Shown one piece after another: positions 3,620 to 20,009 of a stretch of 54,297 nt of DNA. The notes beneath the pieces were generated by a model, which did no database searches, had not been told where the DNA came from, and was given only the letters and a program-made list of their open reading frames with translations. Source of the stretch: Planctomycetia bacterium (GTDB lineage: Bacteria; Planctomycetota; Planctomycetia; Gemmatales; Gemmataceae); assembly GCA_005808665.1 (NCBI GenBank), contig SYLG01000007.1, positions 1 through 54,297 on the forward strand, read 5' to 3'. The position numbers and the translations under genes were made by a program. The first letter of the stretch is position 1. Every line of letters starts with the position of its first letter.

Positions 3620-4936
3620 ATGGACCATTGGGGGAATGCCGTGGCTGAGTCTTTCGTTAAGGGAATGAAGTGCAGGGTGTGCGGCAAAAGCTATCCTGTG
3701 TCACCCAACAATTTCTGCACGGATGATTTTGGGCCCCTCGAAATGGATTACGACTACGAGTCAATCCGTGAAGCCATAAGTCGTTCCAAAATCGAAATGC
3801 GGACTTGGAATATGTGGCGATACCGCGAATTCCTCCCATTGGACCATGAACCAACGGTTGGGTTGCATTCCGGCGGAACCCCTCTTATTAAAGCCACAAG
3901 GCTTGGAAAGGCCCTCGGATTTGATGACCTATACTTGAAGAATGATGCGGTCAATTTTCCCACCTTGAGTTTCAAGGACCGCGTGGTGGCGGTGGCCCTT
4001 TCCAAGGCAAAGGAATTTGGCCTGAAAACCGTAGGGTGTGCTTCAACCGGAAACCTGGCGAATAGTGTGGCGGCCAATGCAGCAGCGGCTGGTCTGGAAA
4101 GTTACATTTTTGTACCTGCCGATTTGGAAAAGGCAAAAATCCTTGGAACAAGCATTTTTGGTGCCAAAGTATATGGCGTTCACGGCACCTACGACGAAGT
4201 GAACCGGCTTTGCACCCAGGTAGCATTCAAGTTTGGTTGGGGTTTTGTAAATATCAATTTACGGCCTTTTTATGCGGAAGGGTCCAAATCCATGGGATTT
4301 GAAATCGCCGAGCAATTGGGATGGCAAACGCCCGATCAGGTGGTTTCACCCATGGCGGGGGGGGCATTGATTGGAAAAGTACACAAGGCCTTTCAAGAGG
4401 CTTATAAATGCGGACTTTTGAATCAAGTACCCAAAACAAGGTTTTATGGGGCCCAAGCAACCGGATGTAACCCCATTACGGACGCTGTAAAAACCAATCG
4501 GGATCAACACAAACCCGTCAAAAAGCCAAATACGATCTGCAAATCGCTGGCGATTGGAGACCCGGCGGATGGATTTTTTGCGGCCAAACTCATTCGTGAT
4601 TCTGGCGGTTGGGGAGAGGATGTAAGCGATGAGGAAATTCGTGAAGGAATGATTGAATTGGCGGAATATGAGGGTGTTTTTGCCGAAACAGCGGGTGGCA
4701 CAACCGTTGCCGTGGCTCGCAATCTCCTTCAACAGGGCAAACTTTCCCCGCATGGCAAAACGGTCCTCCTTATTACCGGAAATGGGTTGAAAACCCAGGA
4801 GGCCATTATGAACAACATAGAACCGCCAACACACATTGCCGCCACCTTGGATGCCTTTGAGGCGGTCCATGTTCAAAATCAAGAGTTTCCCTCCCTTGTC
4901 AAAAACACCAACAAAGGGAATCTCTTGGGAGTATGA
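3620..4936 (+). CDS. Threonine-synthase-like PLP enzyme (candidate sulfur-carrier-dependent homocysteine synthase)
   Basis: The 438-residue product is a fold-type II PLP enzyme of the threonine synthase family. The PLP lysine lies in NFPTLSFKDR (K119), phosphate-binding STGNLANS follows near 138, and the C-terminal signature is FAETAGGTTVAVA. The N-terminus has a ribbon-like element with C18, C21 and C33, but the fourth Cys expected of a zinc ribbon is replaced. Classical ThrC converts O-phosphohomoserine to threonine. This gene is instead controlled by a SAM riboswitch and followed by a MoaD/ThiS carrier, an E1-like activator and a cysteine desulfurase, so a sulfur-transfer reaction on activated homoserine yielding homocysteine is a serious alternative. 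A plain annotation would be thrC. The start is uncertain: GTG 3641 has a good GGGGG upstream, and ATG 3665 is also possible. Confidence 0.9.
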   Translation: MDHWGNAVAESFVKGMKCRVCGKSYPVSPNNFCTDDFGPLEMDYDYESIREAISRSKIEMRTWNMWRYREFLPLDHEPTVGLHSGGTPLIKATRLGKALGFDDLYLKNDAVNFPTLSFKDRVVAVALSKAKEFGLKTVGCASTGNLANSVAANAAAAGLESYIFVPADLEKAKILGTSIFGAKVYGVHGTYDEVNRLCTQVAFKFGWGFVNINLRPFYAEGSKSMGFEIAEQLGWQTPDQVVSPMAGGALIGKVHKAFQEAYKCGLLNQVPKTRFYGAQATGCNPITDAVKTNRDQHKPVKKPNTICKSLAIGDPADGFFAAKLIRDSGGWGEDVSDEEIREGMIELAEYEGVFAETAGGTTVAVARNLLQQGKLSPHGKTVLLITGNGLKTQEAIMNNIEPPTHIAATLDAFEAVHVQNQEFPSLVKNTNKGNLLGV

Positions 4937-4998
4937 TTTAATAGAATTTATAACTGGTGCTTTCCCGTTTTTCGTTTCACTTATGCTCAGGGGACTTC

Positions 4999-5271
4999 AT
5001 GTCGGTTCGAGTTCATATTCCCACCCCACTTCGCCCCAATGCCGGGGGGCAAGCAATTGTTGAGGTTGACGCCAATACGGTTGGTGAATCCCTTGCCAGG
5101 TTGGTTGAAATTCATCCCGCCATGGGTGGAAAACTGTTTGAAAATGGCAACCTCCGGCGATTTGTAAACATTTATGTCAACGATGAGGATATTAGGTATC
5201 TGGAAAACCTTGAAACCCAAACCAAGAAAGATGATGAAATAGCCATCATTCCGGCCGTTGCCGGAGGATAG
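4999..5271 (+). CDS. MoaD/ThiS-family sulfur carrier protein
   Basis: The 90-residue product has the ubiquitin-like carrier pattern: an early beta strand (VRVHIPTPLRPNAGG), a helix with VGESLARLVEIHP, the conserved VNIYVNDEDIR strand, then DEIAIIPAVAGG. It ends exactly in Gly-Gly, the terminus that E1-like enzymes adenylate and convert to a thiocarboxylate. The sequence resembles stand-alone carriers such as CysO more than molybdopterin-synthase MoaD, but that is a judgement by eye. ATG 4999 has AGGGG upstream and fits the family length. It lies 62 bp after the PLP enzyme and 5 bp before the next gene. No MoaE or other molybdopterin gene is nearby, which argues against a molybdenum cofactor role. 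Confidence 0.9.
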   Translation: MSVRVHIPTPLRPNAGGQAIVEVDANTVGESLARLVEIHPAMGGKLFENGNLRRFVNIYVNDEDIRYLENLETQTKKDDEIAIIPAVAGG

Positions 5272-5276
5272 TTACC

Positions 5277-5708
5277 ATGGTCAAAAAACAAAAACACCAT
5301 GGGAAACCACCCTTGCCCGGTGCAACCCATTCATCCGGACCAAACCATAATACGATTATAAAGCAACCTGAATCCGGCGAGGGGCAGGATACTGTAGGGC
5401 CTGAGGGAATTGCCCTCTTTCCGGAAATTCCCCCTGAATTGGGCGTAGATCCACTACTGGAATGTTTGCTTTCCATGGTGGTATTTATTTCCGCATCGGA
5501 CGAAAACCTTATCGATCCAAAGGCCGCCGATGAAGCCTTTTCCCACCTTCAAAGGGTCCTTTCCAAGTTGAGTGCAAAGCGGCTCGCAAGAATGGTAGAG
5601 GAGCTTGAGGTTGTTGCCGGATGGGTTAAAGACCAAGGTCTTGGTATGGAAGCCGTGGAATTTATAGAAACATTTTTGGACGAAATGGGTGTGGATTTGC
5701 CGTCATGA
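5277..5708 (+). CDS. Unknown 143-residue protein of the sulfur-transfer operon
   Basis: I do not recognise a family. The first 55 or so residues are polar and rich in Gly, Pro and His (KKQKHHGKPPLPGATH), probably disordered. The rest is predicted helical, with DPLLECLLSMVVFISASDEN near 62-80 and KRLARMVEELEVVAGW near 105-120. The hydrophobic run is short and interrupted, so a membrane anchor is not clear. It starts 5 bp after the carrier gene and its stop overlaps the ThiF start by 4 bp (ATGA), so it is translationally coupled inside the operon and probably works with the carrier or the E1-like enzyme. It has no JAMM-protease HxHxD motif, so it is not an obvious replacement for the Mec+/HcyD hydrolase of related pathways. 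Confidence 0.8.
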   Translation: MVKKQKHHGKPPLPGATHSSGPNHNTIIKQPESGEGQDTVGPEGIALFPEIPPELGVDPLLECLLSMVVFISASDENLIDPKAADEAFSHLQRVLSKLSAKRLARMVEELEVVAGWVKDQGLGMEAVEFIETFLDEMGVDLPS

Positions 5709-6763
5709 CCGAATTCAATTTTGAACTGACAGAAACCGAAAAGGATCGTTATTCACGCCAAATGCGCTTTAATGCCATTGGTACTTCGGGCCAAACCCAC
5801 CTCAAAAACGCCAGGATTCTCCTTTGCGGATGTGGGGCCCTTGGAACCGTTCTCGCCAATACCCTGGTTCGGGCCGGAGTAGGATTTATCCGGCTGGTAG
5901 ACAGGGATTTTGTTGAGGTAAGCAACCTGCAAAGGCAAGTGCTTTTTGACGAAGACGATGCGATGCAGGGGGTCCCTAAATCCGTTGCCGGTGCAAAAAA
6001 ACTGGGTCAAATCAACTCCTTGGTTTCCGTTGAACCGGTCGTTGCCCATATTGACAGGGGCAACATTCTTGAATTGGCAAAGGATGTACATTTAATCCTT
6101 GACGGAACAGACAATTTTGAGATCCGGTATCTTATCAATGATGCAGCGATCAAATTGGGAATCCCCTGGGTGTATGGGGGGTGCATTGGTAGTCATGGTC
6201 AATTCATGACGATTCTCCCTGGGGACACCCCCTGCCTTCGATGTGTTTTCGAGGCGGCACCTGGACCGGGTGAGGCGGGAACATGTGATACTGCCGGGGT
6301 ACTTGGGATGACCATTAACATCATCGCCAGTTACCAGGCAACCGAGGCTTTAAAAATCCTCTCCGGCAATAGTGATGCGATTAGTCGGGATCTTGTTTAT
6401 CTGGATTGTTGGGAAAACACTTTCCGGAAAATCAAAATTGCCAAACTCAAGGGAAAAGTTGATTGCCCCTGTTGCACTCACAATCGATTTGAATGGCTCG
6501 AGGGAGAACAAGGTGCCCAAACCACTTCACTTTGTGGCCGAAATGCCGTTCAAATTGCCCACGCCAAACCGATCAGGCTCGATTTTGAATTCCTTTCGAA
6601 AAACCTATTCCACCTGGGCAATGTTAGTTTCACCCGTTTCCTATTGAGGTTTTCGGCTGAGGGTTGTGACTTCACCGTCTTTCCCGATGGCCGGGCCATC
6701 ATTAAAGGGACAGACGAACCGGATCGTGCCATGGCACTTTATGCCCGGTATATTGGCCATTAA
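5705..6763 (+). CDS. ThiF/MoeB/HesA-family sulfur-carrier adenylyltransferase
   Basis: The 352-residue E1-like enzyme would adenylate the C-terminal glycine of the carrier encoded two genes upstream. Visible landmarks are the nucleotide loop GCGALG (42-47), VSNLQRQ (about 72-78) with the conserved Arg, DGTDNFEIRYL (133-143), and paired zinc cysteines CLRC (177-180) and CPCC (254-257). C194, in TCDTAGVLG, sits at the position of a conserved crossover-loop cysteine in MoeB/ThiF. About 95 residues follow the second zinc pair; they show no rhodanese active-site Cys loop, so sulfur must come from elsewhere, and the adjacent cysteine desulfurase is the obvious donor. The start overlaps the upstream stop as ATGA. 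Confidence 0.93.
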   Translation: MTEFNFELTETEKDRYSRQMRFNAIGTSGQTHLKNARILLCGCGALGTVLANTLVRAGVGFIRLVDRDFVEVSNLQRQVLFDEDDAMQGVPKSVAGAKKLGQINSLVSVEPVVAHIDRGNILELAKDVHLILDGTDNFEIRYLINDAAIKLGIPWVYGGCIGSHGQFMTILPGDTPCLRCVFEAAPGPGEAGTCDTAGVLGMTINIIASYQATEALKILSGNSDAISRDLVYLDCWENTFRKIKIAKLKGKVDCPCCTHNRFEWLEGEQGAQTTSLCGRNAVQIAHAKPIRLDFEFLSKNLFHLGNVSFTRFLLRFSAEGCDFTVFPDGRAIIKGTDEPDRAMALYARYIGH

Positions 6764-6802
6764 TACCTAACGATCGTTTACCCATTTGGGCAATATTCGG
6801 CA

Positions 6803-7948
6803 ATGACCATTTACCTTGACAACGCCGCCACCACATGGCCAAAACCTGAGTCAGTCTATTTGGCTATGGACAATTTTGCCCGTAAATCGATGGCTAATCC
6901 GGGCCGTTCAGGCCACCACATGGCCAAGGCCTCGGAAAAAATCCTTGACGATACGCGAATTGCTTTAAACCGTTTTTTTGAAGGTTGCTCGCCTGACCGA
7001 TGGGCTTTTACGCTTAACGGTACGGATGCCCTAAACATGGCAATCAAGGGTGTGGTGGATCCAGGGGATCATATCATCACAAGCGACCTTGAACACAATA
7101 GTGTCAATCGCCCCTTGCGGGCACTGGAACTGTCTGGAAACAATTCCGTTACACGAATTAGCTCTGACGAAAGTGGAACCGTCAATCCAGATGCGTTTCT
7201 GAAAGCATTTACCCCCCAAACAAAACTTGTGGTTTTGACCCATGCAAGCAATGTCCTTGGGACGGTCCAACCCATTGAAGCAATTGCTCATTTGACAAGA
7301 AGCAAAGGAGCTTTGTTTTTGGTAGATGCGGCTCAAACTGCTGGGATTTTGCCCATTTCCCTTTCAAAACTTCCGATTGACCTCCTGGCTTTCCCCGGCC
7401 ACAAAGGCCTTTTGGGTCCAACGGGAACAGGTAATCTTTATGTTGGACCTCGGGTAAAGATGCGTGCTTGGCGGGAGGGTGGAACAGGTGGCGATTCCAG
7501 AACGGAAACACAACCCAGGGATTTCCCGTATTTTCTGGAGGGTGGAACCCCAAATATTATGGGGATTGCAGGCCTTTTGGCAGGATTGAAGTGGATCACC
7601 GAAAAAAGTCAGAATATCATTCATCAACAGGAAAATGATTTGGCGAAGCGGCTTTCAGAAAGCATCGCCTTATTGCCTGGGCTCCGGTTATTGGGTCATC
7701 AAAACTGGGACAAAAAAGTCGCCACCGTGAGTTTTACGGTGGAAGGATTGGAACCGTATGAAATGGGAAACATTCTCGATAGCTCGTTTGACATTGCCAT
7801 TCGACCGGGATTACATTGTGCCCCGCAAATCCACCTGGCACAATCCACTTTCCCGGATGGGGCCATTCGGGCCAGCTTGGGACCTTTTAATTCGGAAGGT
7901 GATATTGAGGCATTGATTATTGCCCTGAGACAGGTGTTGGGGGGATAA
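6803..7948 (+). CDS. Class V aminotransferase fold cysteine desulfurase
   Basis: The 381-residue PLP enzyme begins IYLDNAATTWPKP, typical of the single-protein cysteine desulfurase branch within the SufS/IscS superfamily. The PLP lysine is K201 in FPGHKGLLGPTGTG. D175 and Q178 (VDAAQ) and H98 (EHNSVNRP) are the expected cofactor contacts, and C339 in RPGLHCAP is the candidate persulfide cysteine. It would take sulfur from cysteine and hand it to the ThiF/carrier pair upstream. It lies 39 bp after the ThiF-family gene and ends the operon. No isc or suf scaffold genes are nearby, so a dedicated role in carrier thiocarboxylation is more likely than general Fe-S assembly. Confidence 0.9.
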   Translation: MTIYLDNAATTWPKPESVYLAMDNFARKSMANPGRSGHHMAKASEKILDDTRIALNRFFEGCSPDRWAFTLNGTDALNMAIKGVVDPGDHIITSDLEHNSVNRPLRALELSGNNSVTRISSDESGTVNPDAFLKAFTPQTKLVVLTHASNVLGTVQPIEAIAHLTRSKGALFLVDAAQTAGILPISLSKLPIDLLAFPGHKGLLGPTGTGNLYVGPRVKMRAWREGGTGGDSRTETQPRDFPYFLEGGTPNIMGIAGLLAGLKWITEKSQNIIHQQENDLAKRLSESIALLPGLRLLGHQNWDKKVATVSFTVEGLEPYEMGNILDSSFDIAIRPGLHCAPQIHLAQSTFPDGAIRASLGPFNSEGDIEALIIALRQVLGG

Positions 7949-11290: not shown

Positions 11291-13783
11291 CTAGGATTTT
11301 GAAGACGAATCTGTTGTATTTGGAAGCAATTGGTTTGATTTGCGATTGATTTGCGATGGATCTGCATCATCTGTGTACCCTGTATAGTCATTGTATCCAT
11401 AGTTGTAACCATAACGATACCCATATTTATAGGAGTATTTATAGTTATAGGAATATCCATAACCATAAGAATACCCATATTTTCCAGATTTAGCGTGAGC
11501 ATCAAAACAATTGATTACCAACCCAAGAACTCGGGTTTCTATATTGGCAAGCATTTCACATGCCCGTATTGCTGAGGCGCGTGCCCCTTTGTTGAGGAGT
11601 AGATTGACTATTACCCCATCAACCCTTGGCGCTACGATGCAAGGATCTGAAACCGCAAGAATGGGGGGAGTGTCAATGAGGACAAAATCAAATTTATCCC
11701 TTAATTGAGCCACCAAATCCGGAAATCGCGGGGAAGTTAGAAGCTCGGCTGGGTTGCTGGGGCGGGGCCCACAAGGAAGTAGTGTCAGATTGGGTACTTC
11801 CGTAGGGATCATTGAGTTTTCCAGGGTGGAGGTACCCTCAATGTAAGTAGCCAACCCATTTTCAGTATTGGGGATGCCAAAAATTTTGTGAATCCTTGGT
11901 TTCCTCATATCCGCATCGATGACTATTACTTTTTTTCCCGATTGGGCAATGGAAATGGCAATATTGCAGGAAAGGGTTGACTTACCATCCCCGGCATTGG
12001 GTGAGGTAATTTGTAAAACTTGGTGCCCTCGACCTTGGGTGCTAAAATAGAGACCGGTTCGTAATCCCCTGTAGGCCTCTGCCTCAGTTGATTTGGGTTT
12101 ATGAGCGGTTATTAGCTGTTCTTCCAATAACGATCCTGGTTTTCGATCTGCTTCCTCGACCCGAATGGTTGGAATATGGCCAAGAATGTTGAGCCCTAAT
12201 TGTCTCCGAATATCATCAGGCGTTTGGAAACTCCTGTCTGCTAATTCTGCAAGGTAGGCAAGTCCCATTCCGCCCCCAAACCCCATTACGGCTCCCACAA
12301 AAAGGTAAACGATTCGGCCGGCTCCCGTTGGAAACGGGCCACTAACCTTTGAAATTTGTTTTGCATCATACCCCCCGTGATCTTTGGTTAGAACAATTTG
12401 ATTTTTGATTTCTTCATAGGTTTCCAATTTCCTCCTTGTGGCTTCAATTCGTGAAGCCAGATCTTTGCATTGCGCTTCCAAATCTTTTTCCTTTTCCAAA
12501 TCATCTTTTAAGGTTAATTGTTGATTTTGGGCCTGTTGGAGCGCTTCTTCATATTTTGTAATCCTGGCTGCGTTAAGTTCCATTTCCCGGCCCAGGGGAT
12601 CAGTTGATGTAAATTTCGATCCATCCTTACCTGTTGTTGTTCCCCGAACTTTCTTTACTTCTTCTATGTAATTGATTTGAGTTTGTAGTTTAACCATTTT
12701 GGGGTGATCTTTTCCCAAATCAATTAAAAGTAACTTCATTTGCAATTTCAACAGGTCCAAAGTCGCATCATCAGGAGTAATAAACATTGTGGATGTGTCT
12801 GATCCAAGGGAACTGTCACCGGAATTTTTGGGAAGTGCTACCCCCCTGGCCCCATGCCTTGCTAACAGGTCGTCCCTTCTGTCCTTAAGATCGGCCAAAA
12901 GCAATTCATATTTCCGGATACCATCTTCCAAACCGGCATTGACCTTAAGGGCACCAACAGGGTGGATTTTCTTCAAATTATCCTGTTTAAGTCGAAATTC
13001 CGTTTGCAGTTGCAGGAATTGGGTATTGGTGCTGGTAATGATTCCTTCCATCCTTTGGACCGAACGATCGTTCCCGATGTCATAGATTTTTTTCAGATAA
13101 TTTTGGTAGGATTTTACCACGGCCAAAAGGACCTTTGGGGTATCTTCAGGGTATAAACCGGTTTTGTAATTGAGGACCAGTACCTTGCGTTTTTCATCCT
13201 GGACCACTTGAAGGCCACCATGTACCAAGGCAGCCAATTCGCTTTTGGATTGAGCTCCAAGTGGTAACCTTTTAAGGCTCTGCCTATTTTTATTCCCTTC
13301 GGGTTGGCCTGATGGTTGGTCCTCCCCAATGGATTTGGATAATCCACCCGAAACCCCTGGAATGGCTCCTCCCAAAATATTGTCCACCAGAGTTAAATCG
13401 GAATCCCCTTCCAGGATATCTGCGGTTCCCTCCATGACATCAGGACTTTTGACGACGGCAATTTGGGAAGAAACATAATCCTCCATAAAGCCGGCGCGAC
13501 TGTCCAAATTCGTGTTAAGCTCTCCCCGTTTTTTTACAACATGCACATCAATCGAGGTTTGGTAGGCAGGGACCACCCGAAGGTGAAAGAAAAAACCGCC
13601 AACCACCCCGACCACGACTCCAATAGAAACCAATGGAAGCCGTTTTAAAACAAGTTGGATAAGTGTGGTGCTTTTGGAATCTTCCCTGGAAAGGTTTGGT
13701 TCCTGAAAAGTTGGTGATAAGGCGTTAAGTTGCCTTGAATTTTCTTGAGGAGCAATCCCGCGATTATCAATTGCTGAAGCCAT
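11291..13783 (-). CDS. Wzc-type polysaccharide co-polymerase/tyrosine autokinase with Tyr-X tail
   Basis: The 830-residue inner-membrane protein would control chain length and export of an envelope polysaccharide. A first membrane segment (LVSIGVVVGVVGGFFFHL) is near residue 50. A long, largely coiled-coil periplasmic region follows, then a second membrane segment (IVYLFVGAVMGFGGGMGLAYL) near 495-520. The cytoplasmic BY-kinase domain has Walker A NAGDGKSTL near 600, Walker A' VIVIDADMRKPR near 622 and Walker B FVLIDTPP near 700. Residues 769-803 contain 17 tyrosines, mostly strictly alternating with another residue, where BY-kinases carry their autophosphorylated Tyr cluster. ATG 13783 was preferred to the upstream TTG 13798 because GGGGATTGG precedes it. 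It is followed upstream by a WecA-like transferase gene. Confidence 0.93.
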   Translation of the reverse strand: MASAIDNRGIAPQENSRQLNALSPTFQEPNLSREDSKSTTLIQLVLKRLPLVSIGVVVGVVGGFFFHLRVVPAYQTSIDVHVVKKRGELNTNLDSRAGFMEDYVSSQIAVVKSPDVMEGTADILEGDSDLTLVDNILGGAIPGVSGGLSKSIGEDQPSGQPEGNKNRQSLKRLPLGAQSKSELAALVHGGLQVVQDEKRKVLVLNYKTGLYPEDTPKVLLAVVKSYQNYLKKIYDIGNDRSVQRMEGIITSTNTQFLQLQTEFRLKQDNLKKIHPVGALKVNAGLEDGIRKYELLLADLKDRRDDLLARHGARGVALPKNSGDSSLGSDTSTMFITPDDATLDLLKLQMKLLLIDLGKDHPKMVKLQTQINYIEEVKKVRGTTTGKDGSKFTSTDPLGREMELNAARITKYEEALQQAQNQQLTLKDDLEKEKDLEAQCKDLASRIEATRRKLETYEEIKNQIVLTKDHGGYDAKQISKVSGPFPTGAGRIVYLFVGAVMGFGGGMGLAYLAELADRSFQTPDDIRRQLGLNILGHIPTIRVEEADRKPGSLLEEQLITAHKPKSTEAEAYRGLRTGLYFSTQGRGHQVLQITSPNAGDGKSTLSCNIAISIAQSGKKVIVIDADMRKPRIHKIFGIPNTENGLATYIEGTSTLENSMIPTEVPNLTLLPCGPRPSNPAELLTSPRFPDLVAQLRDKFDFVLIDTPPILAVSDPCIVAPRVDGVIVNLLLNKGARASAIRACEMLANIETRVLGLVINCFDAHAKSGKYGYSYGYGYSYNYKYSYKYGYRYGYNYGYNDYTGYTDDADPSQINRKSNQLLPNTTDSSSKS
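11375..11479 (-). repeat. Low-complexity Tyr-X coding repeat
   Basis: This 105-bp stretch encodes the tyrosine-rich tail of the Wzc-like kinase. It is a six-base quasi-repeat of the form TAY-NNN: every second codon is tyrosine for about 30 codons, and the intervening codons are mostly Gly, Ser, Asn and Lys. The repeat is degenerate, so selection as well as slippage may have shaped it. Confidence 0.85.
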
Positions 13784-13813
13784 GAAACCAATCCCCAATC
13801 CCTGCCAGAGTTA

Positions 13814-15665: not shown

Positions 15666-16403
15666 TTAAGCCTTGGATTGCACATTGTTTCGGGAGGAAA
15701 TGTCCTTGGTAAAAATGGGTTTGTTTAAAACCCCTTTCAAATCGGCCCATTCCCGGGGATCCAATTGCGATGCGTTTACCTCTACCGGGCAAATTTCCTC
15801 CGCCAAACGCATTCCTAAAAAATGGGCTTTAGCCAGCATTTCCAGGTTTCCCCATGCCGTTTTTGACTGCATTGGTATTTTTTGGAACCATGCGGTCCTT
15901 AAGAGTCGAATTGGGTTTAATGGATCCTTATTGTGAACCCCCAGAAGCCAATATCCAATCTGTTCCCATTTCCAATTGGAAAAACCAAGCCAGGCATTGT
16001 TTTTTGCCAAGGGAATTTCCAATAAAAACCGGAAAGGTTGCAGAAAACACCACGAGAGTAGCCTCATGATCCAAGGGGCTTTGCCACCCGTTCTTCGAAA
16101 AGTGACCCCATCCAAGGCTTCCACCAATTCACGGTTTTTTTTGATCCAATCCAGGAGGTCAGGGCTGGTTCCCTTGGGAACCAAGAGGACCCAGGGACAT
16201 GGAATATTTGTTATTGCCTGCTCCAAAGATTGTCCCCAATCCGAACCCACGGGGAGGGAATTAACAAAAATGGTCAGACCTAATGAATTGGCCCTCGATT
16301 CCCAATCCAATTTGTCGAAAGTGGTTGCATATCCATAATCGAGGAGGAGGACCTGTAGGGATCCAATATGTAAGTTGGTGGGTGAATTTTCAGGAAAAGA
16401 CAA
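15666..16403 (-). CDS. DPM1-like glycosyltransferase-fold protein, apparently degenerate
   Basis: The 245-residue product resembles family 2 (dolichyl-phosphate-mannose synthase-like) glycosyltransferases mainly in its C-terminal half: DPLNPIRLLRTAWFQKIPMQ and EMLAKAHFLGMRLAEE match the acceptor-side region of that family. In the N-terminal half the usual nucleotide-binding Asp and DxD motif are not evident; the strand that normally carries them reads PWVLLVPKGTSPD. It may be non-catalytic or highly diverged. The only in-frame start is TTG 16403, with GGTGA a few bases before it. It starts 17 bp after the GT39-type gene and is probably co-transcribed with it. Confidence 0.65.
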   Translation of the reverse strand: MSFPENSPTNLHIGSLQVLLLDYGYATTFDKLDWESRANSLGLTIFVNSLPVGSDWGQSLEQAITNIPCPWVLLVPKGTSPDLLDWIKKNRELVEALDGVTFRRTGGKAPWIMRLLSWCFLQPFRFLLEIPLAKNNAWLGFSNWKWEQIGYWLLGVHNKDPLNPIRLLRTAWFQKIPMQSKTAWGNLEMLAKAHFLGMRLAEEICPVEVNASQLDPREWADLKGVLNKPIFTKDISSRNNVQSKA

Positions 16404-16420: not shown

Positions 16421-17938
16421 CTATTGGGGAAAAGCCTTTAGTAAAACTAACGGTTTATGGTGTTTCTGACCATCCAAACCCTGGATTGCTGAATCTTCCA
16501 TTACCCACTGGGTTCCGGGAGGGCCATTTGGCCAAAGGCTTAAAACTTGGGGGTTGGTTATCACCCAGGAGGGTTTATGGATCGAAAGGCAAGAACATAA
16601 TTCTTCAGGTTTTCCCAAAATACGATGGGGGCGATTCAAATGAAATGCCAATGCATGGGCTTCCTCCCCAAAAAAGAGGACAGGTTCATCAATGGGCATT
16701 AACAGGTTAATTTTTTTGGCCCATGTTTTGACATCTCTGTTCGCCTCATTATTTGGAATATCAAAAAATATCAACCAAGATATAATCAAAAATGTAATAA
16801 TGACACAAAATAAAAATGCTAATGAAAGTGAATTATAAATTATTTTTGACGAATTTATTATTGAAATTGAATTAATAAATGATCCAAAAAACAATGAACA
16901 TGCAGGATATGCCACAATAAGATAGTCAGATCTTTTAAAATTTGAAATAGATAAAACTAAAAACAACAATAATAACCAAATTAAAGAAGTAAATTTGATT
17001 GACTTAAATTCAAATAGTTTATAAATATTCAGATTTAACTTTTTAATATTAATAAGGATTAGCAGCAATCCCAAGGATGGCCAGGGTTGAAAGTCCCAAA
17101 GGAATTGGACGGGATAGAACCAAAAGGGATGAGAGCGTAGTCGCCCTGTGCCTAGGCCCCTATCCCAATTGTGTTCAATAAAAAAATGCTGTGTAAACTC
17201 CCCTTCGGTGGCCAAGTGGGCATAAAGGAACCATGGCAAAGATAAGCCTACCCCCAAGATCCCTGTAAAGGCGAGCCCTGGAAGCGAAAAGAATTGCCTC
17301 GAAAGGGTGATCCAAACTGCCAATCCGGAAGCTCCGCAAAAAACCAATCCTATGGGGCCTTTCAACAAAATGGCAATCATCACAGAAATGGAAGCCCAAA
17401 CCAAATCCCAGGTGGACCAGGTTAGTGTATAACGAATGGCGAATAATCCATAAAGTGTCGTTGCAGCCGCCAAAGGCATGTCGATCCGGCCAATGCGGGC
17501 GGACCAGATAAAATGAATCGCCGTGCCTAGCACAATTGCTGCCAATAAGCCTGTTTTCCGATTCCCTAAGGAGTGACCAATTAGGATAACGGAGGCGAGG
17601 CAAACCAATGCCCCCAAAACCGAGGGAAGGCGAATCGTCCAGTTATTGACCTCGGTTGCGTTACCGGAAATAAGGGCAACGAGCCAATAATACATAGGTG
17701 GTTTTTGAACATCGGGAGTTTCAATGGTCCTACCAGGCAGCCACCAAATTCCTGTTTCCAACATGGTTCTGGCATTCAATCCGGATCGGGCTTCGTGGCT
17801 ACTCCAAAGATCCCGGTCCCCCAAATTTTGAAAAAATAACAACCAAATTCCCAGGGAACCGGCAATACAACAAACCACAATTGTTCCATAACCGCGAAAA
17901 AGTTTGTATATTTTAGGCGGTCTTGCGTCTGTAATCAC
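16421..17938 (-). CDS. GT39/ArnT-like integral membrane glycosyltransferase
   Basis: The 505-residue, multi-spanning protein has the first-loop signature of ArnT/PMT-type enzymes (GDRDLWSSHEARSGLNARTML near 34-53), with the acidic residues needed for transfer from a polyprenyl-phosphate sugar. KPPMYYWLVALIS near 78-90 and ARIGRIDMPLAA near 148-158 are further family landmarks. It would add a sugar to lipid A or another envelope acceptor on the periplasmic side. The start is GTG 17938, overlapping the end of the ABC exporter gene by 26 bp, which implies a shared transcript. The stretch encoding residues 290-400 is strikingly AT-rich and Ile/Asn/Ser-rich compared with the rest. Confidence 0.88.
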   Translation of the reverse strand: MITDARPPKIYKLFRGYGTIVVCCIAGSLGIWLLFFQNLGDRDLWSSHEARSGLNARTMLETGIWWLPGRTIETPDVQKPPMYYWLVALISGNATEVNNWTIRLPSVLGALVCLASVILIGHSLGNRKTGLLAAIVLGTAIHFIWSARIGRIDMPLAAATTLYGLFAIRYTLTWSTWDLVWASISVMIAILLKGPIGLVFCGASGLAVWITLSRQFFSLPGLAFTGILGVGLSLPWFLYAHLATEGEFTQHFFIEHNWDRGLGTGRLRSHPFWFYPVQFLWDFQPWPSLGLLLILINIKKLNLNIYKLFEFKSIKFTSLIWLLLLFLVLSISNFKRSDYLIVAYPACSLFFGSFINSISIINSSKIIYNSLSLAFLFCVIITFLIISWLIFFDIPNNEANRDVKTWAKKINLLMPIDEPVLFFGEEAHALAFHLNRPHRILGKPEELCSCLSIHKPSWVITNPQVLSLWPNGPPGTQWVMEDSAIQGLDGQKHHKPLVLLKAFPQ

Positions 17939-20009
17939 TTTGGTAAAATTTCTGGTATGCTACACAGGATTGTAAGAGGTCAGAATGGCAACCCAGGCCA
18001 ACTATTCTTCCAGATTCCAAGACCAAAATCCTGCTGGCCAGGTGAACCGATGCCGGCCGATGGGTGATCATGAAAACCGTCCGATTGCGAATGAACTCCT
18101 CCATTGCTTTATGAATTAATGTTTCGCTTTCGGGATCGGATTGGCTGGTGAATTCATCCAAAAGGAGAATGGGTGGGTTCCTAAGGATGGTCCTTGCCAG
18201 GCAAATTCTTTGGCGTTGACCACCGGATAGGCGATTGCCGGATTCCCCAACCACGGTTTCATATCCCATGGGCAATTTGAGGATCATTTCATGAGCGTGG
18301 GCTTTTCGGGCAGCCTCTTCAACCTGTTCTTTCGGGACGGTTTTTAACCCATAGCATATATTTGCGTAAATCGAATCGTCAAAAAGAACCGCATTTTGGG
18401 AAACAAGGCCCACCATGCGTCGAAGGCTCCTTAAATGGTATTTTCTCAGGTCGTACCCAAACAATTGTATGGCACCATGGTCCGGGTCATGAAAACGGGG
18501 AAGGAGGCTAAATAAAGTGGATTTACCACATCCATTGTGTCCAACAATTGCAATTGTTTCGCCTTTTTTAACATCAAAACTGACATCCCTTAAAACGGGA
18601 ACCCCTTGGTGATAGGAAAAACCAACCTCCTGAAAGCGGAGAAAAGGGGTTTCGTCGGTTGGTTCAACCCATGGGGCAAGGTCGCCCTGTTGCTCTACAA
18701 TCCGAATACTTTGGGAGGATCCTGAAAGGGTTTCAAGGCGGAAACCGGAGGGATTGGTCAGGATTTTGGGGACATTATCAAGTATTTCAAAAACCCGATC
18801 CGAGGCAGCCCAGGCGGCCTGAAGTTTTGTGAAAACACTTGACAATTTTCTAACCGGGTCAGAAACCGCTGCTAACAGCACATAAAGCTGAATCAATGCT
18901 TCGGGATCCATGGGTTGTTCTGACATTCGAATACCAAAAAGCGATGTTTCTTGGCGAAGTACCAAAAAAGCCCCTGCCAACAAGGCACAGGCTACTGCCG
19001 CAACTCCAAGAACTTCAATTATGGGGCCAGCAATGGCATCCAGGTAGACCACAATATTGGATCGGTGTTTATAATCCCTAATGGCAACAAGAAATCGGCG
19101 CCTTTCCAAAGCTTCCGCAGTGTGAATTTTTACAGTCCTGATGCTTTGGAAGGATTCCTGGAGGATTTGGAAAATCTTTGACATTCTTTCAAGCAGCTTT
19201 CGGGTAGCTCGTTTCATTGTGCGACCAATGCGGGCTAAAACCAGGAGAACGGCCGGCACAATGATAAGAAACATGAGAGTAAGTTGCCAACTGATCAGGC
19301 AGGCCAGTAAAATGCAGGCTAACACTCTTAAGGGTTCGGCGATTACCCTACCAAAAAGGGTTTTCATGCCAGTTGACAACGAATCCATGTCATTGGTGAA
19401 TCTTGCCATCAGGCCTGCGGAACCCTGTTCGTTAAAATGGTCAACATCCTGTCGAATGACATGGCCAAAACAACGATTTCTCAAGTCGTAAATGGTACGA
19501 TTGATGACACCTCCCACTAAACAGTCTTGGGCCACTTCGAAAAGGCACTTTAAGGTAACGGCCAGGATAACAGCCACCACTACACAAAGTAAATTTTGAA
19601 AAGTGTCATCCGGCAATCGATCCACAACATTTTTTTTAATGAGTTGGAGGTAATGCTTTTTGCTCCTTAGCCATTGGATTTTGGTGTCGTTCCGGACTTG
19701 CTGGGAGGTTAGTTCCCGTAACTGTTTTTCGGCAAATTTTTGGTCGGTAATGCCATCGATTTCTTTTTCCCGGGCCTGGAAACGGGATTGGACCTCCTCT
19801 GCCGCATCAATTTCCGTGTTCAGTGTTTGTAACCAAGTCGCTATCCATTGATTTGGGGCTAGGTCGGATTGCAGGGTTTTTAGAAAAGGGTAGATACTTG
19901 TGAAATTTAGGCCCCAAAGGATGGCAGCCATAAAGGCGCATCCAAAGGAAGCTACAATTCTCCCTCGATAGGGCCAAGCAAATTGCAGTACGCGCAGAAA
20001 ATTTTTCAT
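17913..20009 (-). CDS. MsbA-like ABC exporter (fused permease and ATPase)
   Basis: The 698-residue half-transporter has an N-terminal six-helix membrane domain and a C-terminal ATPase. The ATPase has Walker A (GHNGCGKST near 492), signature LSGGQRQR near 590 and Walker B ILLLDEFTSQSD near 613; its D-loop reads FTSQSD where ATSALD is usual. Between the first and second membrane segments there is an insert of about 90 charged residues (EEVQSRFQAREKEID) that looks coiled-coil and is longer than in MsbA. It would move a lipid or lipid-linked sugar across the inner membrane. Its position upstream of an ArnT-like gene, with overlapping ends, fits lipid A or glycolipid handling. Confidence 0.93.
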   Translation of the reverse strand: MKNFLRVLQFAWPYRGRIVASFGCAFMAAILWGLNFTSIYPFLKTLQSDLAPNQWIATWLQTLNTEIDAAEEVQSRFQAREKEIDGITDQKFAEKQLRELTSQQVRNDTKIQWLRSKKHYLQLIKKNVVDRLPDDTFQNLLCVVVAVILAVTLKCLFEVAQDCLVGGVINRTIYDLRNRCFGHVIRQDVDHFNEQGSAGLMARFTNDMDSLSTGMKTLFGRVIAEPLRVLACILLACLISWQLTLMFLIIVPAVLLVLARIGRTMKRATRKLLERMSKIFQILQESFQSIRTVKIHTAEALERRRFLVAIRDYKHRSNIVVYLDAIAGPIIEVLGVAAVACALLAGAFLVLRQETSLFGIRMSEQPMDPEALIQLYVLLAAVSDPVRKLSSVFTKLQAAWAASDRVFEILDNVPKILTNPSGFRLETLSGSSQSIRIVEQQGDLAPWVEPTDETPFLRFQEVGFSYHQGVPVLRDVSFDVKKGETIAIVGHNGCGKSTLFSLLPRFHDPDHGAIQLFGYDLRKYHLRSLRRMVGLVSQNAVLFDDSIYANICYGLKTVPKEQVEEAARKAHAHEMILKLPMGYETVVGESGNRLSGGQRQRICLARTILRNPPILLLDEFTSQSDPESETLIHKAMEEFIRNRTVFMITHRPASVHLASRILVLESGRIVGLGCHSDLLQSCVAYQKFYQSDYRRKTA

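Follow-up and report, generated by a model that had tools for sequence, protein, structure and literature searches.

A long, conserved alternating-tyrosine tail on a planctomycete Wzc-type kinase and its probable reading as a lengthened phosphorylation ratchet

Why does a Wzc-like tyrosine kinase end in a tail that places a tyrosine at every second residue over 15 registers? We address this question for the kinase encoded in the window, the 54,297-nucleotide stretch of contig SYLG01000007.1 (assembly GCA_005808665.1, Planctomycetia bacterium) that was analysed here.

A Wzc-type kinase and its tyrosine tail

The BY-kinase gene (11291-13798, minus strand) encodes 835 residues with a TTG start as listed. 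The protein matches TIGR01007 (polysaccharide biosynthesis tyrosine autokinase) with 176.3 bits against the curated cut-off of 108.05 (E 5.6e-52). Among solved structures, CapAB, BceF, Wzc, VpsO and Etk are closest to it in sequence, and the same set is recovered by fold from an AlphaFold model of the kinase region, which is modest (pTM 0.65, five sequences). The catalytic motifs are intact: the EX2RX2R oligomerisation motif EAYRGLR (residues 574-580; 12059-12079), Walker A GDGKST with the K540 equivalent (603-608; 11975-11992), Walker A' VIDADMRKP with the D564 equivalent (626-634; 11897-11923) and Walker B FVLIDTPPI (705-713; 11660-11686), all on the minus strand, followed by the C-terminal tyrosine cluster. 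By hydropathy, two putative transmembrane segments lie at about residues 50-75 (13574-13651, minus) and 496-517 (12248-12313, minus), with a domain between them and the kinase from residue 574, which is the PCP-2a layout. No Pfam Wzz domain is detected at the N-terminus, so that the co-polymerase part is assigned by this layout and by sub-threshold profile matches, and its homology to PCP-2a domains is only weakly shown. Judged by motifs and profile, this is a usual Wzc-type (PCP-2a) kinase in which no catalytic motif is missing; that it is Wzc-like agrees with the sequence-only reading.

The tail is less ordinary. The tract at 11375-11479 (minus strand) corresponds to residues 774-808, and its reverse complement translates as YGYSYGYGYSYNYKYSYKYGYRYGYNYGYNDYTGY. 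It contains 17 tyrosines in 35 residues, while the remainder of the kinase contains 17 in 773. In translation, fifteen of them, Y774-Y802 (11393-11479, minus), form a ladder with strict i+2 spacing and 14 consecutive YxY steps, within which each tyrosine is preceded by a tyrosine at -2 and never at -1. The description of the tract as 17 tyrosines in 35 residues, with 15 at every second position, is thus exact. Y805 and Y808 come after the ladder with i+3 spacing and belong to the terminal anchor DYTGYTDD (residues 804-811; 11366-11389, minus), delimited by clade comparison, beyond which lies a variable polar C-terminus (11294-11365, minus). In 100,000 composition-preserving shuffles of the 35 residues the i+2 tyrosine pairs averaged 7.5 and never exceeded 13, against the 14 observed, and adjacent YY pairs averaged 7.8, against none. 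Nowhere else in the 4.48-Mb genome do six or more Tyr codons alternate in a run. Part of the ladder seems to follow a four-residue sub-pattern, (K/R)Y(G/S)Y, with a basic residue at alternate X positions: KYSYKYGYRY in the window and KYGYKYGYKY in another genus, g313 (L262-L264). The tail is predicted to be disordered, with pLDDT of about 25-33 from a shallow alignment of five sequences that makes this weak evidence; the prediction fits a free tail, as expected.

Gene neighbourhood and genome partners

The kinase gene stands in a minus-strand run. Fifteen bp upstream of it is a WecA-like phosphoglycosyltransferase gene (Glycos_transf_4, Pfam PF00953; 13814-15343), whose product continues at the C-terminus for well over 100 residues past the Pfam domain, in an extension partly common to relatives. 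Then follow a conserved open reading frame with no Pfam match (15666-16403; kept in G002, G482, G483 and G023), a PMT_2-type membrane glycosyltransferase (16421-17938) and an MsbA-like ABC transporter (17913-20009), the last two kept in G002, G482 and G023, where the longer gene order is preserved. The WecA-like gene adjoins the kinase in 10 of 10 orthologues tested; it is not seen at the G003 paralogue or in G428. The congener G001, 90% complete, is without both the kinase and the WecA-like gene; either the entire system was lost or the assembly has a gap there.

Candidate Wza and Wzy partners, Poly_export and Wzy_C proteins, are encoded near 80 kb on the same contig. A search of the genome for the LMW-PTP and CpsB families found no Wzb-type or CpsB-type phosphatase. 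The sole LMW-PTP-family protein (L310:2846-3262, contig C15) resembles arsenate reductase and has an ArsR-like regulator and an aquaporin-like gene as neighbours; we dropped it as the cognate Wzb, since this neighbourhood and the NCBIfam matches point to an ArsC-like protein.

Elsewhere in the window, a plus-strand gene run at 3620-7948 holds, by eye, threonine synthase, a MoaD/ThiS-like protein, a ThiF/MoeB-like E1 and a NifS-like enzyme, and looks like a sulfur-transfer cluster.

Conservation and spread of the ladder

In the congener G002 the ladder is identical at 33 of 33 residues, although 15 of 17.8 synonymous sites have changed, and the X residues are conserved together with the tyrosines. 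The two kinases are 89% identical, and identity falls to 47% over the 30 residues that follow the ladder; if the ladder were conserved only as well as the kinase, 33/33 would arise with a probability of about 2% (0.89 to the 33rd power). The three species of g313 have clearly homologous ladders with 14 or 15 tyrosines, and the gaps in their alignment to the window ladder are solely whole Tyr-X dipeptides, the alternation never being broken. Judged from these comparisons, the ladder is kept by purifying selection.

The window kinase, G002, g313 and g22 form one clade of the kinase tree (support 97/94), to which the anchor DYxx[YD]T[DE][DE] is limited; in G002 an Asp replaces Y808. Within this same clade g22 has short irregular tails, with alternating runs of 3-4. 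More broadly, the order's BY-kinases (g313, G003, G428, G027 and others) belong to the same kinase group, mostly share the WecA linkage and have alternating Tyr-X tails, and differ in their longest strict run, from 2 to 15 tyrosines, and in that some are irregular. The maximum of 15 is reached by the window, G002 and two g313 species among 136 kinase tails. That long ladders arose more than once is not something we claim: at least three changes are required on the tree, but its starred branches force only one. The Tyr-X pattern is common to the close homologues and is not a recent slippage, so it withstands the refuting condition set in the sequence-only reading.

Our survey covers mainly Planctomycetota, with thin coverage beyond the phylum. 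Among 392 Planctomycetota genomes, 42 contain seven or more alternating Tyr codons in a row and nine contain 11 or more. Of the first 30 loci about half are BY-kinase C-termini, as are five of the nine long loci; the remaining loci are mostly microsatellites or unrelated reading frames. The tails of BY-kinases have a median of 7-8 tyrosines in the samples surveyed, and the figure of 5-10 given for a usual tail in the sequence-only reading is about right. Over all kinase tails, and also over the order's orthologues, tyrosines are enriched at lags 2, 4 and 6 and depleted at lags 1, 3 and 5. Pattern-selected loci and relatedness inflate the all-tail statistic in part; the even-lag enrichment persists when those loci are left out. 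In divergent representatives outside the order the alternation is weak (lag-2 z 1.5), which weakens the idea that YxY alternation is general to the phylum's BY-kinases. On these sequence data strict alternation is therefore a trait of the order's orthologues and of scattered cases, and not a law of the family.

The number of tail tyrosines also varies with the catalytic site. Relatives in which the D564 position is Asn show a median of 2 tail tyrosines, against 7 otherwise (nine in the Asn group, its members not being independent), which suggests that the tail is tied to catalysis.

A proposed lengthened ratchet and its rivals

The closest mechanistic model is E. coli Wzc, in which the tail enters the active site of the neighbour, with Tyr i in the site and Tyr i-2 in a pocket lined by Glu675 (PMC8285477, PMC11986026). 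Phosphorylation there goes from the C- to the N-terminus, and the octamer dissociates after about four phosphates (PMC8285477, PMC11986026). YxY is a described conserved motif of BY-kinases with a structural explanation, and Wzc function is set by the extent of phosphorylation rather than by any single tyrosine (PMC11986026); Wzc has been called a molecular timer (PMC10597399). E. coli Wzc (K-12 and K30; PDB 3LA6, 7NHR, 9EXO) shares with the window kinase two transmembrane segments, the kinase motifs, a YxY tyrosine tail and a polysaccharide-assembly context. They differ in the number of registers, 4-5 usable tyrosines in Wzc against 15 strict ones here, and in gene context, the window kinase having a WecA-like neighbour and no adjacent Wza or Wzb genes. 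The tail had been called unlike that of E. coli Wzc; as K-12 Wzc itself ends in AYQDYGYYEYEYKSDAK and YxY is an already known motif, we regard the difference as one of degree and not of kind. What is new is the extreme, conserved length; the kind of tail was known, and the mechanism proposed below is carried over from this relative.

Hence, we suggest that the tract is probably a lengthened Wzc-type YxY ratchet, an autophosphorylation tail with about 15 registers in place of 4-5. By analogy with E. coli Wzc, each protomer in a ring would insert its tail into the active site of an adjacent protomer, and Tyr i would be phosphorylated while Tyr i-2 sits waiting in the neighbouring pocket. With a spacing of exactly two residues the tail would advance through the site in register. 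Stepping would begin at the conserved DYxxYTDD end. Phosphorylation would loosen the ring and dephosphorylation reset it, thus timing polymer growth and export. The ring, the docking in trans, the stepping and its direction are all transferred to the window kinase from its relative and are to be read conditionally.

With three to four times the steps of E. coli Wzc, the ladder might serve as a longer timer or a finer rheostat; that the time would grow with ladder length is our inference alone. The extra steps might delay the opening of the ring, and, given the slack that the ladder provides, the membrane part is perhaps coupled only once the final steps near Y774 are reached.

The points in favour of the ratchet are the Wzc/CapAB-type sequence, fold and motifs of the kinase, the YxY stepping published for Wzc with structures, the 33/33 ladder, its change in length by dipeptides, the even-lag tyrosines, the relatives with Asn for D564, the WecA linkage and the Poly_export and Wzy_C proteins. 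Those against it are Ser742, the phosphatase that was not found and the short irregular tails of g22 in the same clade. Ser742 (11573-11575, minus) occupies the position of Glu675, the tyrosine-pocket residue of Wzc, in a gap-free MAFFT alignment with Wzc K-12, Wzc K30 and CapB, which replaced an unstable HMM-based reading. The pocket of the window kinase thus has a serine in place of the acidic residue. In most of the 136 kinases this column holds Leu, Ala, Val or Ser, it is rarely acidic in the phylum, and position 673 is usually Arg instead. In the window kinase direction is either enforced differently or not enforced. With the Glu missing and the spacing nevertheless kept, what was proposed to give the Wzc tail its direction seems not to apply generally. 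With Ser742 for Glu675 and no phosphatase found, we say that the tail works like the Wzc ratchet, not that it is one.

The best match to the kinase domain in both fold and sequence is Staphylococcus aureus CapAB (PDB 2VED, 3BFV), whose tail docks into the neighbour according to the literature. Unlike the window kinase, CapAB consists of two polypeptides and has a short tail, a Glu kept at the 675 position and a CpsB-type phosphatase. A literature search on YGYGYG with tyrosine kinase found nothing relevant, and none of the papers searched gave biochemistry of planctomycete members.

We also put forward, tentatively and with considerable doubt, a stronger form of the ratchet: a processive phosphotyrosine counter, in which the number of steps itself would be selected and would set the persistence of the ring and so the length of the polymer, with a discriminator other than the pocket Glu and a phosphatase that belongs to neither the Wzb nor the CpsB family. 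The Wzc model comes from one protein with 4-5 usable tyrosines, in which the number of phosphates and the number of steps are not easily separable. The orthologues described here form a natural series in which the clean YxY steps number from 2 to 15 and some congeneric species lie one Tyr-X dipeptide apart, and they make the question of phosphate number versus step number directly testable.

The rival that survives best is a rheostat without a ratchet, which we regard as unlikely yet serious. The tail would be a high-capacity phosphate acceptor with no fixed order, its charge would dissolve the ring, and the alternation would provide flexibility and access to the tyrosines. This agrees with the control of Wzc function by phosphorylation extent (PMC11986026), with the absence of Glu675, the residue proposed to give direction, from the window kinase and with X residues that are mostly Gly, Ser, Lys and Asn. 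However, it leaves unexplained the avoidance of YY and YxxY within the ladder and the exact two-residue changes in length.

A structural or binding ladder is a good deal less probable. Here the tyrosine face would act as an aromatic adhesive, by strand stacking, in a condensate or in partner docking, with phosphorylation secondary. The geometry permits it, and the X residues, recurrently basic in the window (GSGGSNKSKGRGNG) and in g313 (GGGGKSGKGKGKGN) and conserved between the window and G002, would suit it; but the tail is predicted to be disordered, it sits exactly where known autophosphorylation tails do, and relatives whose catalytic Asp is altered have fewer tyrosines. The earlier picture of a dense, one-sided tyrosine surface divides: a dense autophosphorylation substrate would be expected for the family, and the proposed pi-stacking finds no support.

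Functionless low-complexity drift, through recent hexanucleotide expansion or artefact, is very improbable: the perfect (TACGGC)10 tails of other BY-kinases of the phylum (L203) make slippage plausible as an ancient origin, but the 14 repeat hexamers of the ladder are 10 different sequences with only the TA of the Tyr codon invariant, Tandem Repeats Finder detects no hexamer array over the tract, and the protein is identical in G002 at near-saturated synonymous sites, which together rule out recent slippage or sequencing error.

The repeat-built tails themselves belong to another family of the phylum (L203 and L202, in G177 and G219), where near-perfect (TACGGC)10 repeats encode the C-termini of BY-kinases; these tails could gain or lose Tyr-Gly units in frame by slippage.
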